Shown: positions 34,387 to 55,500 of the stretch, in pieces
Position numbering within the stretch: position 1 is the stretch's first letter
Layout of the letters: each line of letters starts with the position of its first letter
Origin: Aspidapion aeneum
Lineage: Eukaryota; Arthropoda; Insecta; Coleoptera; Brentidae
Assembly (NCBI GenBank): GCA_963576565.1
Contig: OY755038.1
Coordinates: 135,363,348-135,427,347, forward strand
Length of the DNA: 64,000 bases
Direction of reading: 5' to 3'
Translations under genes and position numbers: made by a program
Notes under the pieces: model-generated
Databases searched by the model: none
Seen by the model: only the letters and a program-made list of their open reading frames with translations
What the model was told of the DNA's origin: nothing

Positions 34387-36458
34387 ATGCTAGCCCCCTT
34401 CTTAGCTGAGTTTACTGTTGATCCCCACAATATTTCACTACAGTCGACTGAGTCTGGTAAGCGCTGTGATATCCTTTCAATTTATTATCAAAACGTACGC
34501 GGGCTAAGGACAAAAACAAAAACTATTTTTAATTCCACACTCGCCTGTGACTTTGATATCATAGCGTTGACTGAGACTTGGTTGAACCCGGGTATTCACG
34601 GTGCGGAACTTTTTCATTCGGGGTATTGCATCTTGAGATCTGACAGAAACTACGATGAAGTAGAACAAAACTTGGAAGGTGGTGTTTTGTTGGCTGTAAG
34701 GGAAAATCTACAGACAACCAACCTGGAAATTGAATTGCCTGTATCAATCCGTGACACTATAGACATAGCTGGAATCAAAGTATCTTTCTGGAACAAACTA
34801 TCTCTTTATATTTTCCTTGTATATATTCCGCCAGGCAAAATCTCATACATATATGAACAACTTTTTGAATATCTGTCATCCCTGAATTTCCTATATAGTG
34901 CTAAAGTAGTATTTCTCGGAGATTTTAATTACCCTGATAACGTAACCTACATGTAGAGGGATCCTCCTCCCAACAGTAGGTTAACTCACTTGGTGAATTT
35001 TATTAATTTTCTTGATTGGCATCAGATTAACACTGTCAAAAATTCTGATAATCGACTGCTTGATCTAGTATTAACATCTTCCTCAAACCTCACTTCCGTG
35101 CAGAGATGTCATAACATCCTGCTAAACGAGGACAGGTGCCATCCTTCTTTATTAATTGACTATAAAATGGCCGGTGACAAAAAGTTGAGCAAACTCAAAA
35201 TTAATGACATCTTTTATAATTTTAAGAGATCTGACCTGAGAAATCTATATGCGAGCTTAGCTGAGATTGACTGGCGTGTTTTGGAAACGGTTGATAACGT
35301 CAATGAGGCTGTCGCATTATTTTATTACAAATTATACTCCTGTCTAGACACCGACGTGCCAAAAACATCTAAGCGGCGTAGAAAATATCCTCCCTGGTTT
35401 ACTTCCCTCATCATACGGTCGATTAAACAAAAACATAAATACTTTCAAAAACACAAAAAAAGTCGCAGCGATAATGATTTACTTAAATTTCGAGAACTTC
35501 GTAATGAAATAAAACGCGATGCAGAATCATCATACCGCGAGTATTACGCTAGACTTGAAGCGAACCTGACAACTCAACCTGGAAATTTCTGGCGCCTAAT
35601 ACAATCATTGCAGTCGAATAATGGTCTGCCGCAGTGCATGACAGATCACAATGGAGAGAGTACGACGGATCCCCAGCGCATAGCTTATGCATTTGCTGAT
35701 TACTTTCAGAGTTCATATACACCATCTCAGCAGCGTACCTCAGTACAAAATAATATTTCTTCTAACCTAAACTCAAATTTCATTTCACTTAAAAGCTTCA
35801 ATGAATCTGAGGTATTGCAAGCACTAAAGACCGTAAAACCCAAGGCCATTGTCGGTCCCGACAAAATTCCTGCATTTTTACTGAAAGATTGTGCATACGT
35901 CTTTGCTTACCCCTTAACTGCTCTTTTTAATTTATCTTTAAAATTCTGCACATTTCCTGATACTTGGAAAAATTCTAAAATTATACCTATCCATAAAAAA
36001 CAAGAAAAAGATCGTATTGTAAATTATCGGCCAATTACCATAATAAACAATTTTTCAAAATGTTTTGAACGCGTTCTCCATACATCGCTTTACTTTCCCC
36101 TGAGCAGTCAAATAGATTCCTGTCAACACGGCTTCATGAAACGCAAATCTACCACAACCAATTTAATTACTGTTACACACCTAACAGCTGAATCCTTGGA
36201 TGCGGGTGCTCAGATTGATGTTACTTACACCGATTTTTCTAAGGCCTTTGACAGACTAGTCCATAGTTCTTCTCCGTACACTTGTAACCTTTGGCATCTC
36301 TGATGATTTATCTAAGTTTCTTTATTCATACTTAACTGAAAGGGTTCAGTATGTAGAATGCTATGGACAAACCTCCTCTGCGATCAAGGCTACTTCCAGA
36401 GTTCCTCAAGGCTATATACTAGGTCCTCTCTTCTTTATAGCTTTTATAAATAGCATAG
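34387..36458 (+). pseudogene. LINE-B ORF2, endonuclease and first half of reverse transcriptase
   Basis: The endonuclease occupies 34387 to about 35160: YYQNVRGLRTKT, IIALTETWLN, VFLGDFNYPDN and a degenerate final motif (DRCHPSLLI, where Ser-Asp-His is expected). A TAG at 34954-34956 interrupts it. Reverse transcriptase follows: VGPDKIPAFLLKDC, TWKNSKIIPIHKKQ, NYRPITIIN, QHGFMKRKSTTTNL and VTYTDFSKAFDR (first catalytic Asp). A frameshift near 36290 precedes RVPQGYILGPLFF. The coding sequence is then split by the giant LTR element at 36459 and resumes at 62158. Confidence 0.85.
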
Positions 36459-37110: not shown

Positions 37111-40100
37111 TTTAAAATACAAAGGGACGCAGGGGTTAAAATTTGTATGGGAAAAAAATCAATTATAAAGTGTGGTTTTTTTAGTTTTCTTAAATATACG
37201 TAGTCCAAAATTATTTTTTTTCGCAATTCAACAACTAGCGGGGATTAAAGAAAAAAAAGAGCAAGGTAGTTGGCCAAGGGCACCATCCTAGTGACTAATA
37301 ATTTTTTTTGTGTCGCCTAAATAGTTTTTAAAAAAATAATAAAAAATATTACGGCGCCTCGTAAAGCCACATAATAAAAACAAGCAGTGACAAACAAATA
37401 ACAGACGGTTTTTTCGCTTACTCGACAGAACGTGGTTTTCAGGCGCGGATATGCGAAGTTCTATTCTTACATTTGTATACAGGGTGATCAAAATTACTTT
37501 CGGCCTGATAACTTTCGAAAGGAGGACCACAGGCGAGAGAAAATTTTGATCGTGTATATTTAAATTGAGAGTGGGATAGGGTTCACTCTTACTGCGGCGA
37601 AAAGAGAGCGTACCAAAGTTTGTCAGGAGTCAGAATACTAAAACGAAACTCAATCCTGGGGACGAGGCGGTATCTTTTCGCAGTAAGAAGGGTGGGTTGT
37701 TCGTATGCCACGAAGAAAACCAGGGAAGAGAGTTAGGGAAGCGAGAAGACAAAGACGCGAGACGTTACAAAAATTGATCCCGCATTTTTTTTTTTTTTGA
37801 GGACGGGATACCGATCAAACTTAATACCGAAGGACAAGTACCCGGGGTCCACTCCGAACTGAGCGTTCGTAACCAGTTTCTGGACGTCCTGTTGAGCTTC
37901 GTAACCAGTTTCTGGACGTCGTCTCATTTGCCCCTTAACTAAGCGTTCGTAACCAGTTTCTGGACGTCCGCTGAGCTTCGTAACCAGTTTCTGGATGTCG
38001 TCTCTTTTTTTCAACCCTGAACCTGTGGTCCTGTGTACTGCGTCTGCTTAATACCGAAGGGAGGCCCGTAACGCCAGATATTTCGTGGCAAGAGATCGAG
38101 TTGGGTAATCCAACCGCGGGGAAAATTCACAAAAGACACAGACCAAAAACCAAGTGTATCCGAGAGACAAATTTTTAGGGCAACTTGAGAAAGAATATTT
38201 AGAGGTATTTGGGCCATGATAACGAACTATCCAATAACCCTGACCAGGGCGCCGTGAAGATATTTTGTTCTTATCACAAAAACCACGCTGGTTAGGCAAA
38301 AGACTTGATAAAAATAGTCGCGTTGATTGCAGGGTAGTTTAGAGGTCCACCTGACGAAGTTGGTAGTCAGACGTAGGTAGAATAGCAATAAAGTTCAACA
38401 AAGTTATCAAAATTGGTAAAGCCCGGGGCTTATTAGGCTGAACGCACGAAAACTGTCAAAAATTGGCAGCCAAGTTAAGTACAGAAGTAAAAACACAGAA
38501 GTTCAATTGAGAAATTATTAAAACAGTGATAGGGAAAAATTTAGAAAAGAGACGGCAAAAGCGTAAACAGCGTGTTTTTTGGTGGAAAAAAAAGATAATA
38601 ATAATAGTTTTCGAAAAAATCTAAACCCCACGACGCTACTGACTTTATAAAATAGGAAAAAGAAAAAAGCGATCTGGTTACAATAACGTTACGAATTCAA
38701 AAAATCAATGCTGTACTATCTTTAAAGGTTATCGACTCAGACGAAAGGGCCATTGCTTTAAAAAGTTACCTTTGAAAAAGCAAAATCCAATATTTTAGTC
38801 TTTTATTAATATAAAAATTCCAAAAAAGCTGCTTTTTCATTGATATCTTTATTAGTCAGTCATTTCGAGAAAATATTGCAGTTGGAAGTTTTACGCACAA
38901 AGCACACAAACCCAGAGCAAAATTCATTATTTTTTTCCTTTAATCAACATTAAAAGTCTAGATATTTGTTTTTTCGTTGTTTTTTTATTAGTCAATCAAC
39001 TAGGGAGAATATTTAAGTTGGAGTTATAGTACGTATAACACAAACAAAAGGCAAAATCCAATATTTTAGTCGTAAAATAATACAAAAATTCCAAAAAAGT
39101 TGTTTTTATTTGACTTCTCTCTTAATCAGTCATTGGCAGAAAGTATTGGAGTTGGGGAGTTTACGCACAAAGCACACGATCCTAGAAAAATTAATTATTT
39201 TTTTTTTAATCAACAGAAAAAGTTTAGATATTTAATTGTTCCTTGATTTTTTCTCTTGGTCAGTCAATTGAAGAGAATATTGGAGTTGGGGAGTTTCACG
39301 CACAAAGCACACGAGCCTAGAAAGGTTAATTATTTTTTTCTTTAATCAACAGAAAAAGTTTAGATATTTAATTGTCCTTTGATTTTTTTTCTTGGTCAGT
39401 CAATTGAAGAGAATATTGTAGTTGGGGAGTTTTACGCACAAAGCACACTAACCCAGAGCAAAATTAATTATTTTTTTTCTTTAATCAACAGAAAAAGTTT
39501 AGATATTTATCTTTTCATTGTTTTTTCTTGGTCAGACAATTGAAGAGAATATTGGAGTTGGGGAGTTTTACGCACAAAGCACACGAACCTAGAGCAAACT
39601 TAATTATTTTTTTCTTTAATCAACAGAAAAAGTTTAGATATTTATCTTTTTTTTGGTTTTTTGGTCAGGCAATTGGAGAGAATATTGGAGTTGGGGAGTT
39701 TTACGCACAAAGCACACGAGCCTAGAGCAAAATTAATTATTTTTTTTTCGTTAATCAACAGAAAAAGGTTAGATATTTAATTGTTCTTTGATTTTTGTTC
39801 TCCTCGGTCAGTCAATTGGAGAGAATATTGGAGTTGGGGAGTTTTACGCACAAAGCACACGAACCTAGAGCAAAATTAATTATTTTTTTCTTTAATCAAC
39901 AGAAAAAGTTTAGATATTTATCTTTTCTTTGGTTTTTTGGTCAGGCAATTGGAGAGAATATTGGAGTTGGGGAGTTTTACGCACAAAGCATACGAGCCTA
40001 GAGCAAAATTAATTATTTTTTTTCGTTAATCAACAGATAAAGGTTAGATATTTAATTGTTCTTTGATTTTTGTTCTCCTCGGTCAGTCAATTGAAGAGAA

Positions 40101-41351
40101 TATTGGAGTTGGGGAGTTTTACGCACAAAGCACACGAACCCAGAGCAAAATTAATTATTTTTTTCTTTAATCAACAGAAAAAGTTTAGATATTTATCTTT
40201 TCTTTGTTTTTTTTTTGGTCAGGCAATTGGAGAGAATATTGGAGTTGGGGAGTTTTACGCACAAAGCGTACGAGCCTAGAGCAAAGTTAATTATTTTTTT
40301 CTTTAATCAACAGAAAAAGTTTAGATAGTTATTGGTACTTTGTTTTTTTTCTTGGTCAGTCAATTGAAGAAAATATTGGAGTTGGGGAAGTTTTACGCAC
40401 GAAGCACACGAACATAGAGCAAAATTGGTTATTTTTGTCTTTAATCAACAGAAAAAGTCTAGATATTGCTTTTTCTTTTTTGTTTTTTTTCTTAATCAAT
40501 CAATGAAGGAGAATACCGAAGTTGAGGAGTTCTAGCACAAATAACACAAACAAAAAGTATATTTCAGCCCTAAGTTAATATAAAAAATTCCAAAAAAAAA
40601 TAAAAATTCTTTGGTTTTTTTTCTTTGATTCTCTCTTAGTCAATCCGATAGGGAGAGGATTGAAGTTGCTAAACGAAAATAGAGCAACAGAAAGAGCGGA
40701 GCTGTTTTAGAGGAAATAATAAAACAAACATCTAGTAGGCAATAAATTGGGAAAAATAAACAAAAATTGTTCAAAGAGGTCTAAAATAAATTACAAACTA
40801 GACAGAGGTAGACCCTCGAAACGACAAAAATAAAATAGCTGTCAAAAGAATTGGTAACACGCAAAAATCAGTAGCGTCTAAGGTAGTTACAAATTTTTTT
40901 TTTGTTGAAACCGTGCAAATACCCAGGTCAGGGCGCGATATAACATATTCTCGCTTGTTGGGAAATTTTTAGGAAACAAACTAGAACTTATAGACTGGAG
41001 TTTAGTATTTATTGACAGGTCAAAATACAAAGTTAGAAACATAGAGCTGATATCGCGCTTAATTTGTTTTTTATCTTAATAAATCTAAACTAAAGCTAGA
41101 CAGTTGGAGGTAAGCCTAGGAGGCGAATAAATTGGCACGCAACTTTAAAAGGGTTAAGTCCTATTAAAATTATTTCTACATACGGAACGTCGCAACCAAG
41201 TAGGCCAGGTGTCGGGAGCAAATCTGTAACAAAGAAAGAATATAAACATTAGGGGGACTATTATAAGAATACAAGAAATAGTTGAATTTGCAAAGAATAA
41301 ATAAAAACACGAATATATTTGTTTGTGGGCAGAAAGGTTAATTAATAAATT
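37111..41351 (+). other. 4.2-kb leader of the giant element
   Basis: No credible coding frame is present. 37868-38003 holds four copies of TTCGTAACCAGTTTCTGGA. The large tandem array at 38820-40545 occupies much of the rest. Low GC and runs of T are typical. Position and length suggest packaging, promoter or insulator functions, by analogy with the Drosophila gypsy leader. This is not demonstrated. Confidence 0.6.
38820..40545 (+). repeat. ~137-bp tandem array in the leader
   Basis: About 13 units each contain GAGAATATTGGAGTTGGGGA, TTTTACGCACAAAGCACACG and ATCAACAGAAAAAGTTTAGA. Central units are near identical and outer ones diverged, as in an array homogenised by unequal exchange. There are no CRISPR-like unique spacers. 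Confidence 0.85.
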
Positions 41352-42157
41352 ATGGCCGAGGAAAGGGTGAAAATAAAGGTCGTTGACCGAACACCTCCGA
41401 GGGCCTCGAGCGCATCCCAAGAAAAGAGGGAGACCGGGGTCCCAAGAAAAAGGTTACACAGTACACCGTTATATACGGAAGGAATAAGGGTGACTAGGTC
41501 AAGGTCAAGAGGAGGAAAGCCGAACGAGACGGAATTTTCCTTTTTTGACCCACTGAATGAGACAGCGATACAGAAACCCGAAGGCGCGGAAAAAGTAGAC
41601 ACAGAGAGGGAGCAGAAGAAGAACCCAATAGATACCGATACGGAGACGGAGCAAAGCGGGAGAGAGAAGCTTCCGACGAAGAAACAAAAACGGCGAACAA
41701 TTTAGTCGAAAGCGAGAAGCCGGAGGAAGACGAAAAAACAACTACAGGAGCTAGGGTACAGGCGATGAATATACCGACGGGATGGGGGGACGAGAAGCCC
41801 TCAAGTGTAAGGATAGATAGTAGCGAGGAATCCGAAGTGGAGTACAGCGAGGCAGATGGCAGAAAGCCAGCCAAGGAAGGTAGGAACAAAAAATATACCC
41901 ACGTACGGAAGGGGAAGGACTTACCAAGAACGGATAAGCCCGGATCTTCGGCACTAACGGCACAGGCAATCGAAGGCGACTCAAGCCACGGGAGTACGAC
42001 AGAGACAGAGAGCGATAGTAAAGAAGAAAGAAGTGTCGAACGAAGGAGCACCCTGGAGCAAGCGAAAGCGCAGGTCCAGAAGGCACCAGTCCGCAGGGTA
42101 ACGGTACAGACACCGCAGAAAGAAGAAGGAAAGGGAGATAGAAGAACCGGGAGATAA
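41352..42157 (+). pseudogene. Gag N-terminal region, frameshifted
   Basis: An ATG at 41352 starts a charged frame (MAEERVKIKVVDRTPP, with TRSRSRGG) that stops at 41705. A second frame with the same composition runs 41765-42157 (Glu/Ser-rich, SSEESEVEYSEA). The two were probably one hydrophilic N-terminal extension of Gag, broken near 41700 and 42160. Long minus-strand frames here (41494-42428) are shadows of the purine-rich strand. Sequence between 42158 and 42578 is degenerate coding DNA in mixed frames. Confidence 0.6.
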
Positions 42158-42578
42158 AAATAAAGAAGAGATACGCCCGAGGCGGCGGAGTATATAGAAA
42201 AATAGCATGGACAGACAAGTGCCGAGAGAAGAAATGGACACATGCAGAAATAAGGGGAGCGTAGACCCACAAACGACGCAGCGGACGACGCGCCCGGAGA
42301 GAACGAGAGAAAATTAGAGAGAGTACACAAGAAGACAGGGAGAAAGGCGAGAATTCCCGAGGGAAAGTGAAGTCGGGAATGAGGACCTCGAACAAAGAGG
42401 AGGATGACAAGGTCAGGAAAGGAGACATAGGGAGACTAATAGAAGACAGGAAAGGAGCTATGACCGGGAGGCATACGTAGAGAGGGATGCACGGGGAGGA
42501 GCAAGCCAGGAGCTAGTACCATATAGGAGTTGGGACTACCCCAGGGCATGGTCAGGGTCGCACACGCGTTGTTCCCGG

Positions 42579-43886
42579 ATGACCGGGAACGACGGGCGCG
42601 AAATCCGGGGCGTTACCCTTAGGAATTGCAGGAGTGCACCCGGAAATGTAGTCTTAGCGATCCCGGCATTCATAAGCCCGGATAGATTCGATCCGGGTCG
42701 GAACTCGGCGACGAAATTTATGGCCAGTTTCAAGAGGCGGGCTATTGCGAACGCCTGGACGGAAGAGCTAAAATTATTTTATTTTAGTTCGTTCTTAGAA
42801 GGAGCAGCCCTTAAGTGGTACAAAGTGTACGCAACAATGGAGGAAAACCTAGACAAAGATTGGGAGGAGCTAAAGAGAGATTGTCTAAGAAAATGGGGCA
42901 AAACCACAGGCCGAAAAGAAGCCAAAAAAAATCTCGAAAGCAGAAGGCAAGGAAGGGTAGAAAGCACCCTCGAGTTCTTTCACGAACTGGTTTATCTATA
43001 TAGCCAGTATGACCGCTTCCTGGATTTCGAGATTTTTCTGGACTATTCCGAAGAAGGGCTCACGAGCGAAACGTCAAGAAAATACTACTATTTCACAAAC
43101 CCGAACAGGGCACCAAGAGATTTTGACGAAGTGAAAGGAATTGCAAAGGCAAGGCCGGAAGAAAAAACGGACCGAGATATAAGTACTCGAGAGAGGTACA
43201 CCAGGTCCGTGCCAAGAGAGGGCGGGCCACCCCGGTACACCATAGGCGTACGACAAGGCCCAACCGGGGGTAACGCAAGCCCACCCCCCTCGCAAGGCTC
43301 CCGACCATATAGCAGGTTTTATGAGCGGGAAATCCCACAGAATATTACCAGCTATGAAAGGGCGTACCCGAACCCTGATGGGGGAGGGGAAGCACCGCAG
43401 TATGCAGGCCAGTCTGGGCAGTACAACACCCCACGAGCATGGCCATCACGCGCAGGATCATGGCAACCACGCACAGACGGATGGCAACCACGCACAGACG
43501 CATGGCAACCACGCGCAGAAGCATGGCAACCACGCACAAGTGGGTATAGAGGTAGAGGCAATGAGGACAGGCAAAGAAGACCGGAAGGACCTACACGCCT
43601 AGCAATAGAATATACCCCCAGCCGCAGCCAAGGGGGTGAAGGGGGTAACAACCCCCAGACCATAGCACGGCTAGAGACAGGGGAGGAGAATAGCACAACG
43701 GGTAGACCGATCCTAGGTCAAGGCGCGCCAAGGCCAGGGGCGTCCCCAAGGGGCGCAACACAGGCACAGAGGGGTTCACGAACCTTTTCGAATAGGAGTG
43801 CAATCCCTGACACGAGGACTAGCGATAATAGGCCACGATGCTACGGGTGTAACAGACCGGGAAATGGCGCGGGGCGAAGAAATTAA
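42579..43886 (+). CDS. gag: Gag (capsid and nucleocapsid)
   Basis: This 435-codon frame encodes a Ty3/gypsy capsid domain at residues ~15-160: RFDPGRNSATKFMASFKRRA, FLEGAALKWYKVY, then DWEELKRDCLRKWG and ESTLEFFHELVYLYSQY. These are the helical signature of retrotransposon capsids that assemble the particle. It is followed by a Gly/Pro/Gln/Arg-rich stretch including about five WQPRT(D/S)(G/A) repeats (residues ~295-325). It ends at a degenerate zinc knuckle, RCYGCNRPG, after which the frame is lost. Starting Met is uncertain because coding character extends upstream. Nucleocapsid probably continued into the next frame. Confidence 0.8.
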   Translation: MTGNDGREIRGVTLRNCRSAPGNVVLAIPAFISPDRFDPGRNSATKFMASFKRRAIANAWTEELKLFYFSSFLEGAALKWYKVYATMEENLDKDWEELKRDCLRKWGKTTGRKEAKKNLESRRQGRVESTLEFFHELVYLYSQYDRFLDFEIFLDYSEEGLTSETSRKYYYFTNPNRAPRDFDEVKGIAKARPEEKTDRDISTRERYTRSVPREGGPPRYTIGVRQGPTGGNASPPPSQGSRPYSRFYEREIPQNITSYERAYPNPDGGGEAPQYAGQSGQYNTPRAWPSRAGSWQPRTDGWQPRTDAWQPRAEAWQPRTSGYRGRGNEDRQRRPEGPTRLAIEYTPSRSQGGEGGNNPQTIARLETGEENSTTGRPILGQGAPRPGASPRGATQAQRGSRTFSNRSAIPDTRTSDNRPRCYGCNRPGNGAGRRN

Positions 43887-44216
43887 AAACTCCAGTCGCC
43901 TTGCACCATGGGGGAGATAGCGCAAACTATAAGAGCAGAAGCTATCTATCTACGATAGTCATAGAAGTGAAGGTTAGGGATAAAAAAATAAAATCCCTAC
44001 GAGCTACAAATTGAGGAGGTAAACCTGGAATGTGAGGGAGAGATAATAGAAAAATCTCCTTACCCTATTATCCAAGGTATGCAATTTCTCACCAAATTAA
44101 AGACCGTCCTTAATCTGGACGAAAGAACAATAGTTTTAAAACACGATAATAAAGTAATTACAATCAAGCTAAAAGAAGAAAACAGAAATAATAACCCAAT
44201 AAACATATTATAAAGA
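43887..44216 (+). pseudogene. Aspartic protease remnant
   Basis: Reading frames here are broken. The segment around 44000-44165 matches the end of a retroviral-type protease: YPIIQGMQFLTKLKTVLNLD followed by RTIVLKHDNKVITIKL, the flap-distal ILGMDFL-like motif and beta strands. The catalytic D-T/S-G triad cannot be read confidently; HHGGDS (43907) may be its remains. The location between Gag and the rest of pol fits the family. Confidence 0.5.
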
Positions 44217-44284
44217 AATTTTAAAGTCGGTAGAGACATTCTTGGTGAAAGAAAAACGAAGAAAAATAACAAAAATAAATATAG

Positions 44285-44760
44285 GCGAGGGGTAGCAGCC
44301 TCCATGAGCAATGCAAAGTAAAAGAAGTAAGGAAGAACCTATTTACAACTGAAAACTGCTACGCATGGGTCCACTGCGTGGATGCAACGCTAAGAATAAG
44401 CAAAGGCATAGCAGTGGAATTTAGGAAAAAATTTGACAATATAGAGGCTCTCAGGGCACAGAGACCGGAGACGGCGGACACCCTACACTTTAGTCAAGGT
44501 GAAAGAAACATCTATTACCTGGTTACAAAAGACCACGCAGAAACGAAATCAACGTACGAGAGCCTTTTTGGTGAACTCCTGGCCATGAAACAACACCTAA
44601 TAAAGAATAAAATCAACAACATTGCGTTACCAAGAAAAGGATGCGGACTGGATGGATTAGAATGGGAAAGAGTCCGCGACATAATAGAATTTATTTTCGC
44701 AGGAACGCAAATAGAAATACTAATTTGCATTGGGCATCCTCGTAGAAAAAGAAGGAGGGA
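44285..44760 (+). CDS. Macrodomain, TARG1/OARD1-like
   Basis: Open from 44285 without an in-frame ATG, so it is probably part of a polyprotein. The ~155 residues align in order with ADP-ribosyl-glutamate hydrolases of the TARG1/OARD1 (C6orf130) type: NLFTTENCYAWVHCV (strand with ADP-ribose contact), SKGIAVEFRKKF, IYYLVTK (Lys equivalent to the catalytic Lys of TARG1), KSTYESLFGELLAMKQHL, NIALPRKGCGLDGLEW (conserved Asp and glycine loop), VRDIIEFIF, and a final strand IEILICI. The family removes ADP-ribose from acidic residues or deacylates ADP-ribose. It sits between protease and reverse transcriptase, an unusual place for a cellular-type enzyme. The following residues (RRKRRRD) lead into the repeats. 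Confidence 0.85.
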
Positions 44761-44762
44761 CA

Positions 44763-47359
44763 ACTATGACCAACAAAAAGAAAATAAAAACATTTTACAA
44801 ACCGAAAACTCAAAAATAATAAAATTAAACTCGGATAAACAAAAAGACAATAACGAAAATATCTTGAAAACCAAAAACGCAATAACAATAAAGTTTAACT
44901 CGGATAAACAAAAAAGCAATAACGAAAATATTTGGAAAACCGAAGGCGCAAAATTAGTAAGAGTAAATTCGGATCAACAAAAAGAAAATAAAAACATTTT
45001 ACAAACCGAAAACTCAAAAATAATAAAATTAAACACGAATAAACAAAAGGACAATAACGAAAATATCTTGAAAACCGAAAACCCAAAAGTAGTAAAATTA
45101 AATTATGATCAACAAAAAAACAACAAAAACATTTTAGAAACAGAAAACTAAAAAAAAATAAAGTTAAACTCGGATAAACAAAGAAGCAAAAACGAAATCT
45201 GAAAACCAAAAACACAAAAGTAGTAAAAGTAAATTCGGATCAACAAAAAGAAAATGAGAACATTTTGAAAACCGAAAACACAAAAGAAATAAAATTAAAC
45301 TCGAATAAACAAAAAGACAATAACGAAAATATTTTGAAAACCGGAAACGCAAAAATAGTAAAAGTAAAGTCGGACCAACAAAAATTAAATAAAAACATTG
45401 TAAGAACCAAAAATGCAAAAACAATAATGTTTAACTCGGATAAACAAAAAAGCAACAACGAAAATATTTTGAAAACTGAAAGCGCAAAATTAGTAAAAGT
45501 AAATTCGGATCAACAAAAAGAAAATAAAAACAGTTTACAAACCGAAAACTCAAAATTATTAAAGTTAAACTCGGATAAACAAAAAAGCAACAACGAAAAT
45601 ATTTTGAAAACCGAAAGCGCAAAATTAGTAAAAGTAAATTCGGATCAACAAAAAGAAAATGAGAACATTTTGAAAACCGAAAACACAAAAAAAAATAAAA
45701 TTAAACTCGGATAAACAAAAAGACAATAACGAAAATATTTTGAAAACCGGAAACGCAAAAATAGTAAAAGTAAAGTCGGACCACCAAAAATTAAATAAAA
45801 ACATTGTAAGAACCAAAAACGCAAAAACAATAAAGTTTAACTCGGATAAACAAAAAAGCAACAACGAAAATATTTTGAAAACTGAAAGCGCAAAATTAGT
45901 TAAAGTAAATTTGGATCAACAAAAAAAAATAAAAACAGTTTACAAACCGAAAACTCAAAATTAATAAAGTTAAACTCGGATAAACAAAAAAGCAACAACG
46001 AAAATATTTTGAAAACCGAAAGCGCAAAATTAGTAAAAGTAAATTCGGTCAACAAAAAGAAAATAAAAACATTTTACAAACCGAAAACTTAAAATTAATA
46101 AAGTTAAAATCGGATAAACAAAAAAGCAGCAACGAAAATATTTTGAAAACCGAAAGCGCAAAATTAGTAAAAGTAAATTCGGATCAACAAAAAGAAAATA
46201 AAAACATTTTACAAACCGAAAACGCAAAATTAATAAAGTTAAACTCGGATAAACAAAAAAGCAGCAACGAAAATATTTTGAAAACCGAAAGCGCAAAATT
46301 AGTAAAAGTAAATTCGGATCAACAAAAAGAAAATAAAAACAGTTTACAAACCGAAAACTCAAAATTAATAAAGTTAAACTCGGATAAACAAAAAAGCAAC
46401 AACGAAAATATTTTGAAAACCGAAAGCGCAATTAGTAAAAGTAAATTCGGATCAACAAAAAGAAAATAAAAACATTTTACAAACCGCAAACTCAAAATTA
46501 ATAAAGTTAAACTCGGATAAACAAAAAAGCAGCAACGAAAATATTTAGAAAACCGAAAGCGCAAAATTAGTAAAAGTAAATTCAGATCAACAAAAAGAAA
46601 ATAAAAACATTTTACAAACCAAAAACTCAAAATTAATAAAGTTAAACTCGGATAAACAAAAAAGCAGCAACGGAAATATTTTGAAAACCGAAAGCGCAAA
46701 ATTAGTAAAAGTAAATTCGGATCAACAAAAAGAAAATAAAAACATTTTACAAACCGAAAACTCAAAATTAATAAAGTTAAACTCGAATAAACAAAAAAGC
46801 AGCAACGAAAATATTTTGAGAACCGAAATAGCAAAAGTAGTAGAAGTAAATTCGGACCAACAAAAAGAAAATAAATACATTTTAAAAATCGAAAACCCAA
46901 AAATATTAAGATTAAACTCGGATAAACAAAAAGGCAATAACGAAAATATTTTGAAAATCGAAAACGCAAAAGTAGTAGGATTAAACGCTGATCAACAAAA
47001 ACAAAATAAAAATAGTTTAAAAACTGAAAACTCATAATTTTTAAAATTAAACTCTGATAAACGAAAAATCAATGATGAAAATATTTGGAAAACGGAAAAC
47101 TCAAAATTAGTAGAACATAACCTAGAGACACAGAATGATAGGAATAAAAACACCATAGAAACTAAAAAGTCACTAGGAGTAAATTCAAACAAACAAAAAG
47201 ACAATAACAAAAACAGTATGAAAACAGAGAACATAGGAACACTAGACATAAATACAGACGAACAAAGAAAAGATAATAGGAAGAGGCAAAAGGATAAAAG
47301 TAAGAAATTTGGTAAAACAAAAAGAAAAATAGACAAAAAAGCCAAAAAACCAATATCTT
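44763..47359 (+). CDS. Lys/Asn/Gln-rich repeat region of pol
   Basis: About 33 tandem units of 66 or 69 bases translate to alternating 22- and 23-residue peptides, one type with SDKQKSNNENILKTES and the other with SDQQKENKNILQTENS. Unit lengths are multiples of three and most substitutions keep the frame. That argues it was translated as a flexible, highly charged linker between macrodomain and OTU domain. Single-base indels (for example near 45135, 45690, 45930, 46050, 46430 and 47035) now break it. It ends in a basic segment (KSKKFGKTKRKIDKKAKK type) stopping at 47359. Minus-strand Phe/Leu/Cys-rich frames are shadows. Confidence 0.65.
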
Positions 47360-47544
47360 AAGAAATAAAGACTGGAAATTAAATAACTCAAAAACTAACA
47401 CGCAGAATTTCAATATATATATATATATATACAAAAAGACAAAGGAAAAGACCCAAAAATAAATGAACACAAAAGCGAAAAAACAGACACAAGATTACAC
47501 GAAAATGGACACAGACAGACGAAAGGGACAACAAGAATGGACAT

Positions 47545-47945
47545 ATGGGTAAAATAACAGAAATTAGGAAAGACGGAAACTGTTTATTTCGGGCCATTAG
47601 CCTGGCACTATTCCAGACACAAGAAAAACACAGTCTCCTGAGGGAGACCGCAGTAACATATATTCACAATAACTGGGAGAAATTTCAACCTTTTATTGCG
47701 GAAGAGTTAATCAATGGAAAGGGAATAGTTTACCCTTCAAAGACAAAATATTGTGAAAAAATGAAAAAAGATGGCCGAATGCGTGGCAATGGCGGAAGCG
47801 TGCGGGGTGAATATAAAAATATTCACCAACAAGGAACACCTCGAGAGGGGCCAAGTGCTAAATGAAAAGCCAATCTTAATATCCAGAGAAAGCCACTCTA
47901 GGTCGATCTGCCTCGTATTCAACGGCCACTACGAATTAATCGAGG
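47545..47945 (+). pseudogene. OTU-type cysteine protease domain
   Basis: The frame begins MGKITEIRKDGNCLFRAIS at 47545. DGNCLFRAIS is the signature of OTU cysteine proteases, with catalytic Asp/Cys. Residues ~25-75 (LLRETAVTYI, KFQPFIAEEL) match the helical part. After a one-base shift near 47770, ECVAMAEACGVNIKIF (second OTU block) follows, then FNGHYELIEG carrying the C-terminal catalytic His. OTU enzymes cleave ubiquitin or related conjugates. The domain ends just before the spacer leading to reverse transcriptase, so it belonged to the polyprotein. Intact Cys and His suggest recent activity. Confidence 0.85.
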
Positions 47946-49355
47946 GCACAGACGAGGAGGAAGAGGGGAAGGAGAAAGCACGGACAATAGAAACAACAAA
48001 AACCTCCGAAACAAAGGAGTCACAGGAAACGTATGAGTGGCCATTCAAAGAAACAGAAGAATGTAGGCTACACCCACAAGAAGTGGCGAAAGTGACAATA
48101 GCAGAATCATGCGTACTCAGGCCAGGCCAGGAGAAATCATTGAAAATAAGGGTCCAGGGAGGATGCGAACTGGACACAAAAAGATTCTCGCTTAAAAATA
48201 ATTTCTTCACACCTAGAAAGATAGAAGCGAGTTACTTACCATGCCAATATGGCGCGGAGTACGAGCTAAAGGTGAGGTCACACAACCAGATCCACGTATC
48301 ATTGTATGAAGGGTCCTGCATAGGGTTCTCGAACCTGAAACAAGAAAAGCCACTGTTAACGGTAACATACGACGCAGCAAAAGACGAATGTGTGACCATG
48401 GCAGATCACCAGGTCGATCATATCGAAAATACAAAAATTAAGGAAAAGTTAACGATATTATTGGAGAAATACAGGGACATATTTGCAAAAACAACTAGCC
48501 AGATGGGGCGTACCCATTTAGTCAAACATAAAATAGAGCTTACCGAGACTACACCCATTAAATCACTACCATACTGGGTCAGTCATAAAGAAAGGGAGAT
48601 TATCACGCAACAAATAGCGGAAATGGAAAAACATAAAATTATAACGCCGTGCCACTCGCCATGGGCGTCTCCAATCGTTCTAGTAAAGAAAAAAGACTCG
48701 TCCATGCGCTTCTGTACCGATTTTCGCAAAATTAACGATCACACAGTAAAATCAAACTGGCCTCTTCCGAATATTGAGGACATAACCAGCTACTTAGGGG
48801 GCAGTAAGTACTTTACTATCCTCGACCTGCTAAGTGGATATTGGCAAGTAGAAATGGACGAGCGTAGCAAAGATTACACCGCCTTCGTAGCGCAGGGACT
48901 CAAACAATATAGGTATGAGGTTCTACCATTCGGACTCCCCAACACGTTCCAGGAATTGTCGGACAGAGTGTTCGAAGGGCTGAAGTGGAAAAAAGTGCTG
49001 ACCTACCTGGACGACACGATTCTACACACAGAGACCATGCAGGAACATCTAGAGCTGTTGGAAGAGGTGTTTGAACGTCTACGAAAGGCCGGTTTAACGC
49101 TGAGTCCCAAAAAATGCGCCTATCTGAAAAAAGAAATTAAAATATTAGGATTTTCAGTAACAGAGTCGGGAATTTACCCAGATCAAGAAAGGACTGCGGC
49201 GATTGCCCAATTCCCGACACCAAGAAAACTGAAAGAGGTGCAATCATTCATAGGAGCAGCAAATTTCTACAGGAAATTTATAAAAGACTTCTCGAAAATC
49301 GCCCGATCGCTCCACGATCTAACAAAAAAAAACGGTAAAATTCCAATGGGGCGAA
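47946..49355 (+). pseudogene. pol: Ty3/gypsy reverse transcriptase
   Basis: The same frame that ends the OTU domain runs on to 49423. First comes an acidic linker, then a beta-rich spacer (VLRPGQEKSLKIRVQGG) that usually lies between protease and polymerase. Reverse transcriptase begins near LVKHKIELTETTPIK. Motifs: SPWASPIVLVKKKDSSMRFC, DFRKIND, FTILDLLSGYWQVEM (catalytic Asp), LPFGL, VLTYLDDTILH (YLDD), LGFSVTESG and FIGAANFYRKFI. The segment LPFGLPNTFQ lacks about three residues of the usual PFGLxNAPxTFQ, a likely defect. The frame shifts at ~49350 before RNase H. Confidence 0.92.
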
Positions 49356-49829
49356 GCACAACAGGAGGCATTCGAAACCCTGAAGGAAAAATTGATATCG
49401 GCACCAGTATTGCAACATTTTAATCCCCAAAAAGACACAATATTACATGTAGACGGATGCAAAACAGGCATAGGCGCAATATTATTACAGAAAGACAAGC
49501 AGGGGGTGGCCCGCCCCATAGCATACGTCAGTAGGACACTCAACCAAAATAAGAAAAATTACACAATTTCAGAGATAGAAGGACTGGCAGTAGTGTATTT
49601 CCTGGAATACTTAACACATTATATCTTCGGGAGAAAAGTAAAGATAATTAGCGATCACTCAGCGCTTTGCTTGTTCAAAAACACAAAAAACTCAGGTAGA
49701 TTAATCAGATGGAGTTTAAAGCTAGCAGAATATGACTATACCATACAGCACAAAAAGGGTGCCTAAACACAGACGCTGACTGCTTATCAAGATACCCACT
49801 AGAAAACTTAACAGAGACTAACTATCGAT
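49356..49829 (+). pseudogene. Ty3/gypsy RNase H
   Basis: The frame 49392-49766 contains APVLQHFNPQKDTILHVDG (first acidic residue), GIGAILLQ, YVSRTLNQNKKNYTISEIEG (Glu), HYIFGRKVKIISDHSAL (Asp), LIRWSLKLAEYDYTIQHKKG. After a one-base shift at 49764 comes the conserved end NTDADCLSRYPLE. It degrades genomic RNA in the RNA/DNA hybrid. A stop at ~49838 follows. Confidence 0.88.
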
Positions 49830-51181
49830 ATCGATGAGATACGACGACGTATACAATACAAAACGAAGTCACCAGTTAATAAAATAAAGGATCTACAGAG
49901 GAAAGACCAAAAAATTACTGAAATAATAAAGGGATTGGAAGACCCCGAAAACTTGCCAATTGCACAAAGGAAAAGAGTAAAACAATTTATCATGAAGTAC
50001 GATATTTTATACAAGATCTGTTTGACTCCGCAGGGGCGACAGGATCTGATAGTAATACCCAGTCAACTTATAGCGGAAATATTATTTCAGTGTCACGCTG
50101 AACTCGTCTCGGGACATTTAGGAATCACTAAAACACTCTATTAGGTAAAGGAGATATTTTACTGGGATACCTTACAAAAAGATGTCACAAAATACGTAAA
50201 AGGCTGCCGAGACTGCCAGGCTAGAAAGGGAACCAATTTAAAGCCAGCGGGCAACTTGCAACCAATAAAGATTGGACTGCCATTCCAGAAAATTGGAATA
50301 GACCTACTAGGACCCTTCAGCGTGAGAATCGAAGGAGATAATACAATAGTAGTCGCTACTTGCTATGCCACAAGATACGTGGAATGCAAAGCCCTACCGA
50401 ATGGAAAGGCCGAATCGGTGGCAAAATTTCTACTTGAAAATATACTTCTCAGACACGGGGCTCCAAAGGAATTAGTGAGTGACCTCGGACTGACCTTCAG
50501 GTCAGAGCTAGTTTAGGAGCTACTGAAGATGATGGGGACATGTAGCCGCTTTACGACAAGCTACCACCCGGCTTGCAACGGACTGACAGAAAGGTTTAAT
50601 GCGACATTGGTCGACATGTTATCAATATTTTCTAACACCAGACAAGACGACTGGGCATTATATGTACCATTCTGTCAGTTCGCGTACAATACAAGTAGGC
50701 AGGATGCGAGCAAGTACGCACCATTCGAGCTGGTATACGGTAGACCGCCGGTAATACCAACCGAAGCTCAACTGAGCAAAAACGATTACAAATCATCAGT
50801 GAAAGAAATTAGAGAAAGGGCATTAGCAGTAAGAAGCCAGGCGATAATAAACATATTAGAGAGACAAAAAAAAGACAAACGCCTATACGATGAAAAGCAT
50901 AGACCTTTGGAATTTGAAATAGGACAAAAAGTGAAAGTATTTACACCTGTGAGGAAGAAAGGAAAAAGCGAGAAGCTTTTACTAAGGCACTTTGGGCCAT
51001 ATAGAATCGAAGAAAAAATAAGTGATGTGGATTACATGATAAAAATAGAATAGAGCGAGTGCATATCAGTAGGATACTGCCTTACAACGACCCATGGACG
51101 GAAGAAAGTATAGAAGCAGACCCAACGTTGGCCCCAATAATAGAAGAGGGGGCGGGGCGACAGTCGAGAGGGTATAGATGA
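49830..51181 (+). pseudogene. Ty3/gypsy integrase
   Basis: A linker with QRKDQKITEIIKGLEDPENL precedes the zinc domain (CHAELVSGHLGITKT and CRDCQARKG; HHCC pattern). Catalytic core: KIGIDLLGPF (Asp 1), LVSDLGLTFRS (Asp 2), TSYHPACNGLTERFN (Glu). The C-terminal part has YGRPPVIP, LYDEKHRPLEFEIGQKVKVF (GPY/F-like: LLRHFGPYRIEEKI). It ends, after a shift near 51052, with ERVHISRILPYNDPW and stop TGA at 51179-51181. In-frame TAG codons at 50142-50144 and 50514-50516 inactivate it. The catalytic triad itself is intact. Confidence 0.9.
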
Positions 51182-52188
51182 AAAATGGACCGGAAAGAAG
51201 CGGTGCGCAGCGCAATAACGCCTGAGTATGGCAGCCGTAAGTAGGAAGAAACGGGCCGTAGGGCGTAAGTAAGGTGCTGAGGAAAAAAAAAGAAATATAA
51301 TTACCTAAGGTCAGGGAAGACATTAGGGCGGAAAACCCTCGAATTAAGTGAGTCGAGTCGCAGTGGCGGGTCAAAAAAACAGGTCGCAGGGCAGGCTTGG
51401 TCAGCAGAGACTGGCGGCAGGTGATCCTTAGGATGAGGAGTCGAATCAAGTTAAACCTGAAAAAAAAATATATTTATAAATAGGGAATAATACTAATAAT
51501 AATAATAGTAATAAACTAAAACAAATTAAGAGTAATCGAGATGTGGTCCTGGAGCTAGGTATAGTTATGAGGGTTGAAAGGAAAAATTATTTTTTTTTGA
51601 CACCTGGCCTAGAACACGGGACGATTACGGTCTAGTGGCCGAAGAGAATAGTAGAAACATTAAAAAGTAATAGTAGTAAAACGTTATCCTTTTTAAAGAA
51701 ACTTAAAAATCTAAGGAAGAATTAATTTTAGCAGCTGTACAGTTGCAACATGAATTCTTGAGACCTAAAGGAAGAAGGAAAAGACAAAACATTATGAACG
51801 AGAAGAAGGAGAGCAAGAAGAAGGTCGAAAAGAAGACAAGAAAAAAGAAAAAAGTATGTAGGATTCAGTAGTGAAGATTAAGTTACAAAGGAGAAATAAA
51901 ATAGAAGAAATAAGTATTGCAATAGGAAATAAGAAGAGGTGAAATGTTACACAGGTAACAACAAGAAAAGAGATAAGACATAGAAATAGAGGTAGGTAGA
52001 GAAATACGTTATTATGGCCTGGGATTAGTTGAAAGGGAGTAAGTAGACTTCGGTATGGGACGCCATATTGTAGAAAACACATTAACAAACAGAAAACAAC
52101 CCAAACCACCGAAATTACATTTTTCTTTTATTTTTCAGATACATTTGACAAAACGAAAAGGAAAAAAAGAGATCGGAAAAAATACATA

Positions 52189-52252
<64 letters not shown>

Positions 52253-52338
52253 TATTTATTTATATATATATACTCACCAAAAAAAGGAAAAAACAAGACA
52301 GACACTGCGATCGGCTAAAGACCCAAACAGGACCAAAA
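51182..52338 (+). other. Spacer between pol and env
   Basis: Purine-rich DNA with no convincing frame. TTTTTCTTTTATTTTTCAG (52120-52138) is a good splice acceptor for env mRNA. A TA microsatellite follows. The plus-strand frame 52055-52318 crosses the TA repeat and has no family features. Confidence 0.5.
52192..52271. repeat. (TA)n microsatellite
   Basis: About 38 TA units with one interruption (AGATATTTATTTA) near 52250, between the candidate env splice acceptor and the env ATG. Confidence 0.9.
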
Positions 52339-54423
52339 ATGAGGGTCGCAATCTACATGTGGATAGCAATAGTACAAGCCGGATCGGAGAGGGTCGAAAT
52401 ATCAGCTGGGTCATATTGGAAAAGAATGACGGAGACAGTGACATACGAGGCGGCCATCCCACTGACATACACGATGGACTGGATAGATGAACGCCTGCAA
52501 CCTAAAATTGAAAAAGAACAATACAGAGGCAACAATACAATAGAACACCAGTGGTGTACAGTAATGAAGGGCATCGACGAAGTAAACGATCTAGTGAACC
52601 TAGAATTTACAACAATCAATGAGAACTGGATCACCAATAATTTGCAAAACATTTCACTGAGCTACGGGAGGAAGAGAGTACTACGCGAAATTGAATCAAT
52701 TGGGAATTTCTTTAGTTGGTGCTGTAACATTGCAACTCAGAAAATGTTAGACTCACTAGTAATGAGCAAGTCGGAACTACAAGATAACGTTAATAAAATA
52801 AACACCGGACTTGAGGAGTCGTTAAAAATTTTGGGGGATAGCTCAGGTAAATTAAACTCGCTGAACAAGGCATATTCAAAAATTTTCAAAGAAACGGAGT
52901 CAAAATTAAAATTATTAGAACTGTTCATGACACATTTCCAAGAAACAGTACAATCTTCAGACAATACACTTTTTAAAGCAACCGAGAAGTTGCTAGGATA
53001 CCAACATTTAAATACAATAAGATTTTTACAATTAATAAGAGAAATGCGCAAGCAAGACATACTGAGCGACTGCAAAAATAGTTTCATACCAACGGCCATA
53101 CTAAACGCAGAAATACTTCATGACGATTTGGTGAGCCTACAAAAGGATTTGAAAACCCACCAACACGCGTTAGCGATACCACTGAGAAACATAGCCAAAT
53201 ACTACCAATTACCAATTTGCGATTGTTCAATTCCAAGTGGAAAAATTATAATACACGTAAAAATACCAATAACCAAAGAAAAGGCGAGTTGGTCGATTTT
53301 CGAGTTAGCAGTAGCGCTGTTTAAATGGAACGAGGACACATGCATAATCGAACACGAGAACGCGTATTTGGCAGTGTCAAAATCCGGAAACACAGAAGAC
53401 GATATCAGAATAATTAGTGGGACGCCAATGCACTATTGCAGGCCACACCAAAGTAATTTGTGCTACGTACCTCGCTTTGGGGTAGATATAACGACAACCC
53501 CAAGTTGCCCAAAAAAACTGTACACTGGGAGCACAGTTCAGGAGCTGGCTGGGCATTCCACGCTTCACTGTCATAGATCGACGGCGACGGTGATTACGGA
53601 GATCGAAGAGTCAGTGTTCATTGTGGCACACCCGAAACAAGGAACACCAGTAGCATGTCCAAATGGGAAGGACACGCTGAGTCCAGTGACGATAGCAGCG
53701 CAGGGAGCCCTAAAGATAAGCCTTCCATGCAATTGTGAGCTGGTAGTGGGAGACAGCAAACTGATCCCGCGAAGGCTTCCTTGTCCCGAAGATGGGGGAG
53801 AACCTGCAAATATAAAAAGAATATTACTTGCAGCATGGACAAAGCTACAAACATTCATATTAAACCCGATTAGCAAATTTAACTTGCCGACATACACTAA
53901 CGCCGAGAAGGTGTTGAATACCAATTGGACGTTTGAAACCCCCTACGTTAACGTGAGCTCCACCAGAAGGGAGATAAATAAAATAATAGATACTATAAGA
54001 CAAATACCAAAGAGACAGTCATACGGAAATAAGTACAGTTATCAGGTGGATTCGATTATGCTAATATGGAACTCATTTCTGATTATAACGCTAATATACC
54101 TGATACTACATCGAGGAAACTCCCCATTCACGCTAGTACAGGGGATTCCGGGGGTCGTAGCAAGGAACGACTCGACGCACCACGACGTACTGGAGTGGTC
54201 AATAGCTACAGCCTTCGGAACATTCCTTATCTATATAATAGCCCGAACAGTGTGGGTGTACCTAAAAAATAGAAAAACAACACAGATAACAGAACAAGGT
54301 AAGTTCAGGTCTTATATCTTAAAGGTAGACAGTAAAGAAAACATATTAGAGGGAATAAAATCACAAGAAATATTTTGTACATTACAGGAAGATAGACAGG
54401 AAGAGCGGGGGAATAACGTCTAA
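52339..54423 (+). CDS. env: Envelope glycoprotein
   Basis: An uninterrupted 694-codon frame. Residues 1-15 ([15 protein letters not shown]) look like a signal peptide. Basic RKRVLR at ~111-116 is a possible furin-type site (minimal RxxR), followed by [16 protein letters not shown], a candidate fusion peptide, then a helical, coiled-coil-like region (~135-205). The middle has many cysteines ([34 protein letters not shown]). The membrane anchors are [18 protein letters not shown] (~575) and [23 protein letters not shown] (~625). The layout resembles class I-type errantivirus/baculovirus-F-like envelopes. It is the best-preserved gene of the element. Function in infection or cell-to-cell spread is inference. 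Confidence 0.85.
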
Positions 54424-55500
54424 GCAGGGAACTAGGGCGATCTGAAAGTAAGCGAAAATAAAAGCAATGTTCTGAAAAATAATAGAAATTAAATAAATAC
54501 TGAAAATAATAAATAATAATAATAAAAATGTAAGACATTTCGAAAGATTTTGCTTAAGTAGGAATAAAAATAAAATTTAAGAAAACATAACCTAACGATA
54601 AGAATAAAAATAAAACTTTATTAAAACCAAATTTAAGGTTCTAAATATAATAAGAATAGAAAGAAAAAAAAGGGCGACCAAGAAAACAAAATGGTCAACC
54701 TAAACAGCCGCAGCTCGATCGAAGGTGGTAGACTGAAGACGAGGTAGGCTACACAAAAAAAATAATATAGGCAAAAAACATTAAGGCAATTATAGGCAAA
54801 ATAATAGGGCATAAACAGAAAATATAGTAGAACATAAATAATGACAATAAAATTGTAGAATATTTCGAAAAATTTTGCTTAAGTAGGAATAAGAATAAAA
54901 TTTAAGAAAACATAACCTAACGATAAGAATAAAAATAAAACTTTATAAAATCAAATTTAAAGTTCTAAATATAATTAGAGTGGAAAGAAAAAAAGGGCGA
55001 CCAACAAAAAAAAATGGTCAACCTAAACAGCCGCAACTCGATCGAAGGTGGTAGACTGAAGACGAGGCAGGCTACACAAAAAAAATAATATAGGCAAAAA
55101 ACATTAAGGCAATTATAGGCAAAATATTCGGGCATAAACAGAAAATTTAGTAGAACATAAATAATGATAATAAAAATGTAAGATATTTCGAAAAATTTTG
55201 CTTAAGTAGGAATAAGAATAAAATTTAAGAAAACATAACCCAACGATAAGAATAAAAATAAAACTTTATAAAATCAAAGTTAAGGTTCTAAATATAATTA
55301 GAGTAGAAAGAAAAAAAGGCCGACCAACAAAAAAAATGGTCAACCTAAACAGCCGCAGCTCGATCGAAGGTGGTAGACTGAAGAGGAGGTAGGCTACACA
55401 AAAAAAAATATAGGCAAAAAACATTAATGCAATTGTAGGCAAAATAATAGGGGGTAAACATAAAAATGTAGTAGGCCATAAATAACGATAAAAATACAAT
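54424..55500 (+). repeat. Three ~324-bp direct repeats 3' of env
   Basis: CATAACCTAACGATAAGAAT recurs near 54586, 54911 and 55233 (CCCAACG variant), with ATGGTCAACCTAAACAGCCG and GATCGAAGGTGGTAGACTGA in each unit. The first unit abuts the env stop by ~150 bases. The repeats are non-coding. Confidence 0.85.

Follow-up and report, generated by a model that had tools for sequence, protein, structure and literature searches.

In a 64,000-nt stretch of contig OY755038.1 of Aspidapion aeneum (here called the window), which belongs to a 1.286-Gb assembly (G000), a Ty3/gypsy retroelement was found to carry a macrodomain of the TARG1/OARD1 type within its pol polyprotein. The presence of the macrodomain in the element is confirmed. 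That it is a TARG1/OARD1-type domain of pol, as the first-pass annotation of this DNA had proposed, is supported by its sequence, its modelled fold and its catalytic residues, as well as by the domain order and by frames that are open in further copies. Gag, protease pieces, reverse transcriptase (RT), RNase H and integrase flank the macrodomain, all on one strand, as seen from open reading frames (ORFs), Pfam matches and three-frame reading. These pieces show the Ty3/gypsy order of gag, protease, RT, RNase H and integrase, which is also present in two other copies of the assembly (L060 and L058).

A phmmer search of the Protein Data Bank (PDB) with the window segment retrieved TARG1 entries at 8e-29 to 1e-28; the next best match reached 1e-3. 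The predicted model has the macro fold, and its structural alignments gave 34-38% identity with TARG1 chains. Macrodomains of alphaviruses and rubella virus are far more remote from the window type (10-14% identity). The Pfam profile Macro (PF01661), which had been proposed as a check, gave 18.6 bits for the window segment, below the curated cut-off of 22 bits. P0182 (a protein described below), family D and L058 also stay under this cut-off (18.0, 17.8 and 13.3 bits), and family B exceeds it (28.1 bits). As sole proof of identity the Pfam profile is therefore insufficient. Chance or artefact was ruled out by the TARG1 sequence match, the fold alignment and the many genomic copies.

The Lys and Asp motifs assigned to catalysis in the first-pass annotation align with human TARG1 at K84 and D125, their counterparts in the window segment being Lys74 and Asp115. 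In PMC7050489, Lys84 and residue 125 are described as the catalytic dyad, and Asp/Glu-linked ADP-ribose and nucleic acid ends as substrates; Glu125 is printed there, whereas the TARG1 sequence in the PDB search has Asp. With TARG1 (OARD1, C6orf130), an ALC1-like macrodomain hydrolase, the window macrodomain shares the fold, the length, the Lys84/Asp125 dyad and the residues G43, I44 and G123. It differs in being embedded in a retroelement polyprotein and in having Asn for D20 and Asp for S35. Residue conservation was compared over 17 retroelement rows (15 chosen from 35 genomic copies, P0182 and P0183). Equivalents of K84 and G123 are present in all 17 rows, those of D125, G43 and H32 in 16 rows each.

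Absence of the segment from other copies would have spoken against a captured domain; the macrodomain was found in further copies, some of them with open frames. At E-values of 0.01 or less, the assembly gave at least 150 matches to the window macrodomain, one of them the window itself (150 of 282 candidates were scored, and the count is a lower bound). Of the 150, thirty sit in an open frame whose length is exactly 1446 codons, the matched part being free of stops; two others have the same frame length with one stop. For 35 distinct copies the domain order was read (30 loci from the search, L020 and four new copies from nine fetched stretches). The macrodomain stands after the protease and/or before the RT in 31 of them (class 1) and after RNase H, before the integrase zinc domain, in four (class 2). 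An OTU domain was seen in 9 of the 35 copies; in others, including the copy of the window, it is concealed by the short flanks. We grouped the copies into families by identity to the window macrodomain: family A consists of the window and five copies with 91-95% identity, followed by A2 (55-57%), A3 (44-48%), B (39-41%), F (38-39%), D (35-39%), E (37-38%) and C (one copy, 34%). In L058, a family A copy, the protease, the macrodomain, a tandem array and the start of OTU share a single frame of 1084 codons. L031 has two overlapping macrodomain matches in tandem before OTU, a local duplication or insertion. About 4 kb from the family C copy lies an orphan fragment, the C-terminal half of a macrodomain of TARG1 type, with GYGLD in place of GCGLD (L020:1179-1415, minus strand); it is 46% identical to family C and 44% to human TARG1. 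Host OARD1 was not found in the assembly, and L001-L003 look, by reading, like exons of MACROD and GDAP2.

Long open frames are present in copies of families B and D. In family B, protease, macrodomain and RT share a 790-codon frame in L005, L006 and L008, and another copy has a frame of 1525 codons between long terminal repeats (LTRs) that are 99.56% identical over 687 bp. A further LTR pair of this family is 98.8% identical over 584 bp, and two partial pairs are 99.5% and 98.1% identical over 206 and 469 bp. After pol, L010 has an ORF of 702 codons (L010:1998-4106) that matches no Pfam family above cut-off and has a hydrophobic stretch close to its end; by its position it is env-like. In family D, L052 consists of gag (439 codons), pol (1446 codons) and an env-like ORF (639 codons) matching Pfam Baculo_F (3.2e-34). 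Its pol encodes protease, RT, RNase H, macrodomain and integrase in this order, and the macrodomain matches TARG1 at 2.4e-34. In L054, which is flanked by ATATA at either end, the LTRs are identical over 342 bp; those of L052 (99.7% over 334 bp) and L053 (100% over 305 bp) are cut by the stretch end. The near-identical LTRs point to recent insertion of the family B and D copies. L052 of family D may be errantivirus-like, as its gag, pol and Baculo_F match recall Ty3/gypsy elements with a baculovirus-F-like env; the macrodomain between RNase H and integrase sets it apart. About 180 residues between this macrodomain and the integrase zinc domain (L052:4872-5426) match no Pfam family above cut-off. 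Matches of the family D score class are crowded at 66.98-69.48 Mb of contig C4, perhaps a nesting region or a cluster of the PIWI-interacting RNA (piRNA) type.

Among 5.8 billion collected proteins, 223 candidates had a suitable length, and two of them match the macrodomain at E-values up to 0.01. P0182 (863 residues) consists of gag, protease, a macrodomain with 47% identity to the window and the connector; it ends before the RT and has no OTU match. P0183 (1228 residues) has protease, RT, RNase H, a macrodomain with 39% identity to the window and integrase. Neither the macrodomain nor the OTU-RT frame retrieved a relative in scans of Viral_contigs. In a tree of 32 rows P0182 joins families A, A2 and A3 (support 99/97). 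The class 2 order is common to P0183 and family D, whose grouping in the tree is weak (56/74). All 17 retroelement rows fall on one side of the best 32-row tree (65/88), and class 1 as a single clade is not rejected (approximately unbiased test, p-AU 0.413). In a smaller tree of 24 rows the five retroelement rows need two changes, P0183 falling, weakly, with cellular TARG1. A quick-method tree of 60 RT rows joins the window and family B with P0063 and the fragments P0062 and P0080 (Shimodaira-Hasegawa-like approximate likelihood ratio test, SH-aLRT, 99); P0183 is remote. By these trees TARG1 may have been captured once and then moved within pol, or captured twice; they are compatible with both.

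Macrodomains of viruses, for the most part RNA viruses, are known to protect against PARP-based immunity. The macrodomain in pol is probably an ADP-ribosyl hydrolase that would strip ADP-ribose from molecules of the element or the host and thereby shield the element when the host responds by ADP-ribosylation, although we hold this with some reserve. Host PARP enzymes would mark retroelement products or repressors, and the mark to be removed could sit on gag, integrase, nucleic acid ends of the element or host factors. The macrodomain can be translated within pol, in the same frame as the pol enzymes, and would either be released by the retroviral protease or work as part of the pol product. 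Its Lys84/Asp125 equivalents would hydrolyse Asp/Glu-linked ADP-ribose as in human TARG1, and possibly act on nucleic acid ends. In some families the adjoining OTU could strip ubiquitin in parallel. A link between ADP-ribosylation and retroelement control is given by a title in a reference list, according to which SIRT6 represses LINE1 by ribosylating KAP1.

The ratio of non-synonymous to silent substitution rates (dN/dS, omega), proposed earlier as a check, is low between families A and A2 and reaches or exceeds 1 within A2, A3, E and B. Between A and A2, omega is 0.06-0.21 in all 18 pairs, at a dS of 1.43-5.00. Within family A it is 0.30-0.48 in 14 of 15 pairs, and within D 0.23-0.48 in five of six, the remaining pair in each having a dS of 0; the one pair of family F gave 0.31. 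L031 was left out of these sets for its length. Among six family B copies, 18 codons vary, ten of them silently and eight with a change (one to a stop, in L021). Random change would give a silent share of 0.20-0.27, and the binomial P is 0.0009, 0.005 and 0.02 at shares of 0.20, 0.25 and 0.30. Sums for the protease (1.10), the macrodomain (0.21) and the linker and RT (0.39) were not used as evidence, since the pairs share copies and the protease set includes the decayed L004.

Several results weigh against a shielding hydrolase. The dS between A and A2 means that silent sites are saturated, and for 76 pairs from five further comparisons between families it is beyond measure, at a dN of 0.33-0.59. 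Omega is 0.72-1.26 within A2, 0.51-2.95 within A3, 0.23-1.20 within E and 0.06-1.03 within B (3 of 21 B pairs with a dS of 0); such values near or above 1 are as expected of decaying copies and lend the proposed role no support. The sister element P0063 has no macrodomain, so that not every relative needs one. P0063 and the A2 and A3 values would also suit a passive passenger, a host TARG1 cDNA copied into pol and tolerated without function. Such a passenger is nevertheless highly improbable, as the dyad is retained even in families whose identity to the window is as low as 34-57%, frames are open in several families, omega between A and A2 is low, silent changes are in excess in family B, and the macrodomain occurs at two pol positions and in other datasets. 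At the position of TARG1 D20, 7 of the 17 rows have Asp, 9 have Asn and one (P0183) has Ser; at that of S35, Ser and Asp occur in 8 rows each and Asn in one. The window has Asn at the first position and Asp at the second. ADP-ribose binding may therefore differ from that of TARG1. For chikungunya virus in mosquitoes, binding of ADP-ribose and not its hydrolysis is critical, as the title of PMC12632316 states.

This title would also fit a macrodomain that mainly binds ADP-ribose, as a targeting or tethering module, for example of integrase to ADP-ribosylated chromatin or DNA breaks, with hydrolysis being secondary. The position before the integrase zinc domain in class 2 agrees with tethering, whereas in class 1 the macrodomain is remote from integrase, and binding alone would not require the dyad that is found (Lys in 17, Asp in 16 of 17 rows). 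We regard such a module as rather unlikely. The macrodomain could also serve its own polyprotein, for example by clearing ADP-ribose from gag or pol as they assemble, without host defence being involved. Being in one frame with the pol enzymes, it would be packaged along with them. No support was obtained here for ADP-ribosylation of the gag or pol of these elements, no search having been aimed at it, and a role of this kind seems improbable.

Epsilon-like endogenous retroviruses of ray-finned fish bear macro domain ORFs (Basta et al. 2009, as told in a passage of PMC4977317), and a macrodomain in an LTR retroelement is therefore not unprecedented. In the fish, it is an additional ORF of a vertebrate retrovirus; here, a TARG1 type lies within Ty3/gypsy pol, at two positions. 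OTU domains occur on Ginger1 transposons and Helitrons (PMC2836005). There, too, an OTU protease is joined to a mobile element enzyme, in those cases a DNA transposase or Helitron and here a gypsy pol, beside a macrodomain. Among the matches listed in open-licence literature, none describes a macrodomain in a Ty3/gypsy element. This agrees with the first-pass annotation, which knew of no usual gypsy layout containing such a domain.

Features of the window element on contig OY755038.1 (window positions)
Feature	Position	Strand	Basis
Gag, with frame changes	41349..43886	+	ORFs; open pieces 41349-41705, 41561-42157, 42408-43886
Aspartic protease, two pieces in different frames	43883..44211	+	Three-frame reading against L058 frame
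TARG1/OARD1-type macrodomain, 150 residues	44309..44760	+	Sequence search, predicted fold, catalytic residue alignment
Coding tandem array	44787..47112	+	135-bp (45-residue) unit, about 17 copies
OTU-type cysteine protease domain, N-terminal part, DGNC motif	47467..47862	+	Pfam OTU 3.8e-11
Probable second OTU part, other frame, with NGHYEL	47765..47990	+	ORF translation; no profile match of its own
Connector upstream of RT	48053..48424	+	blastp to P0063
Reverse transcriptase	48683..49156	+	Pfam RVT_1 5.8e-28
RNase H	49347..49733	+	Pfam RT_RNaseH_2 8.9e-34
Integrase, internal stops (H2C2 zinc domain, core, C-terminal SH3-like part)	50055..51053	+	Pfam

The window copy is a dead element: its coding sequence is interrupted by several stops and shifts of frame, and the active site of its protease is missing. 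The DTG stretch, which is present in L058, is absent between the two protease pieces; the C-terminal piece (43992-44211) resembles P0085 and P0063. Gag (Pfam Retrotrans_gag 3.2e-06) has a zinc knuckle that is incomplete and a capsid part that shares 53% identity with the P0182 gag, and window positions 41659-43538 are 91.7% identical to L058. In P0063 the connector directly follows the protease, with a gap of about 14 residues, which in the window is filled with the macrodomain, the 135-bp array and OTU. The array is rich in Lys, Asn and Glu, and its frame is open in L058 and broken in the window. OTU was recognized by profile and Cys motif in the window and by profile in L058 (4.7e-09); NGHYEL is presumably its His motif. 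Integrase shows both H2C2 halves (2.1e-05 and 1.5e-07) and SH3_Tf2-1 under the cut-off (2.4e-05). No LTRs of the window copy were detected, as blastn of 40500-54000 against the window gave no long direct repeat; a separate repeat search looked at each end on its own. The family B LTR has no match above 300 bp in the window, and at the position of env (51054-52000, plus strand) there is no ORF of 100 codons. Satellite-like arrays lie on both sides of the element (38834-40541 and 54509-55491, their periods being roughly 136/276 and 323 bp). At 34957-36303 an open frame of 448 codons reads like the RT of a non-LTR element (long interspersed nuclear element, LINE).

The TARG1-type eraser in abundant and partly recent Ty3/gypsy pol, one host enzyme type at two places of one polyprotein type, suggests that ADP-ribosylation also acts against retroelements. 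As a tentative picture, which may well prove too wide, invertebrate endogenous retroviruses could be fighting an ADP-ribosylation defence. They would have captured cellular TARG1 at two pol sites (twice, or once followed by a move), joined by a deubiquitinase in some lines; one line, which bears an F-type env and has the eraser beside integrase, would recently have swept this genome, leaving dozens of copies with the pol frame still open. If this is true, ADP-ribosylation would be a front line against retroelements in animals.
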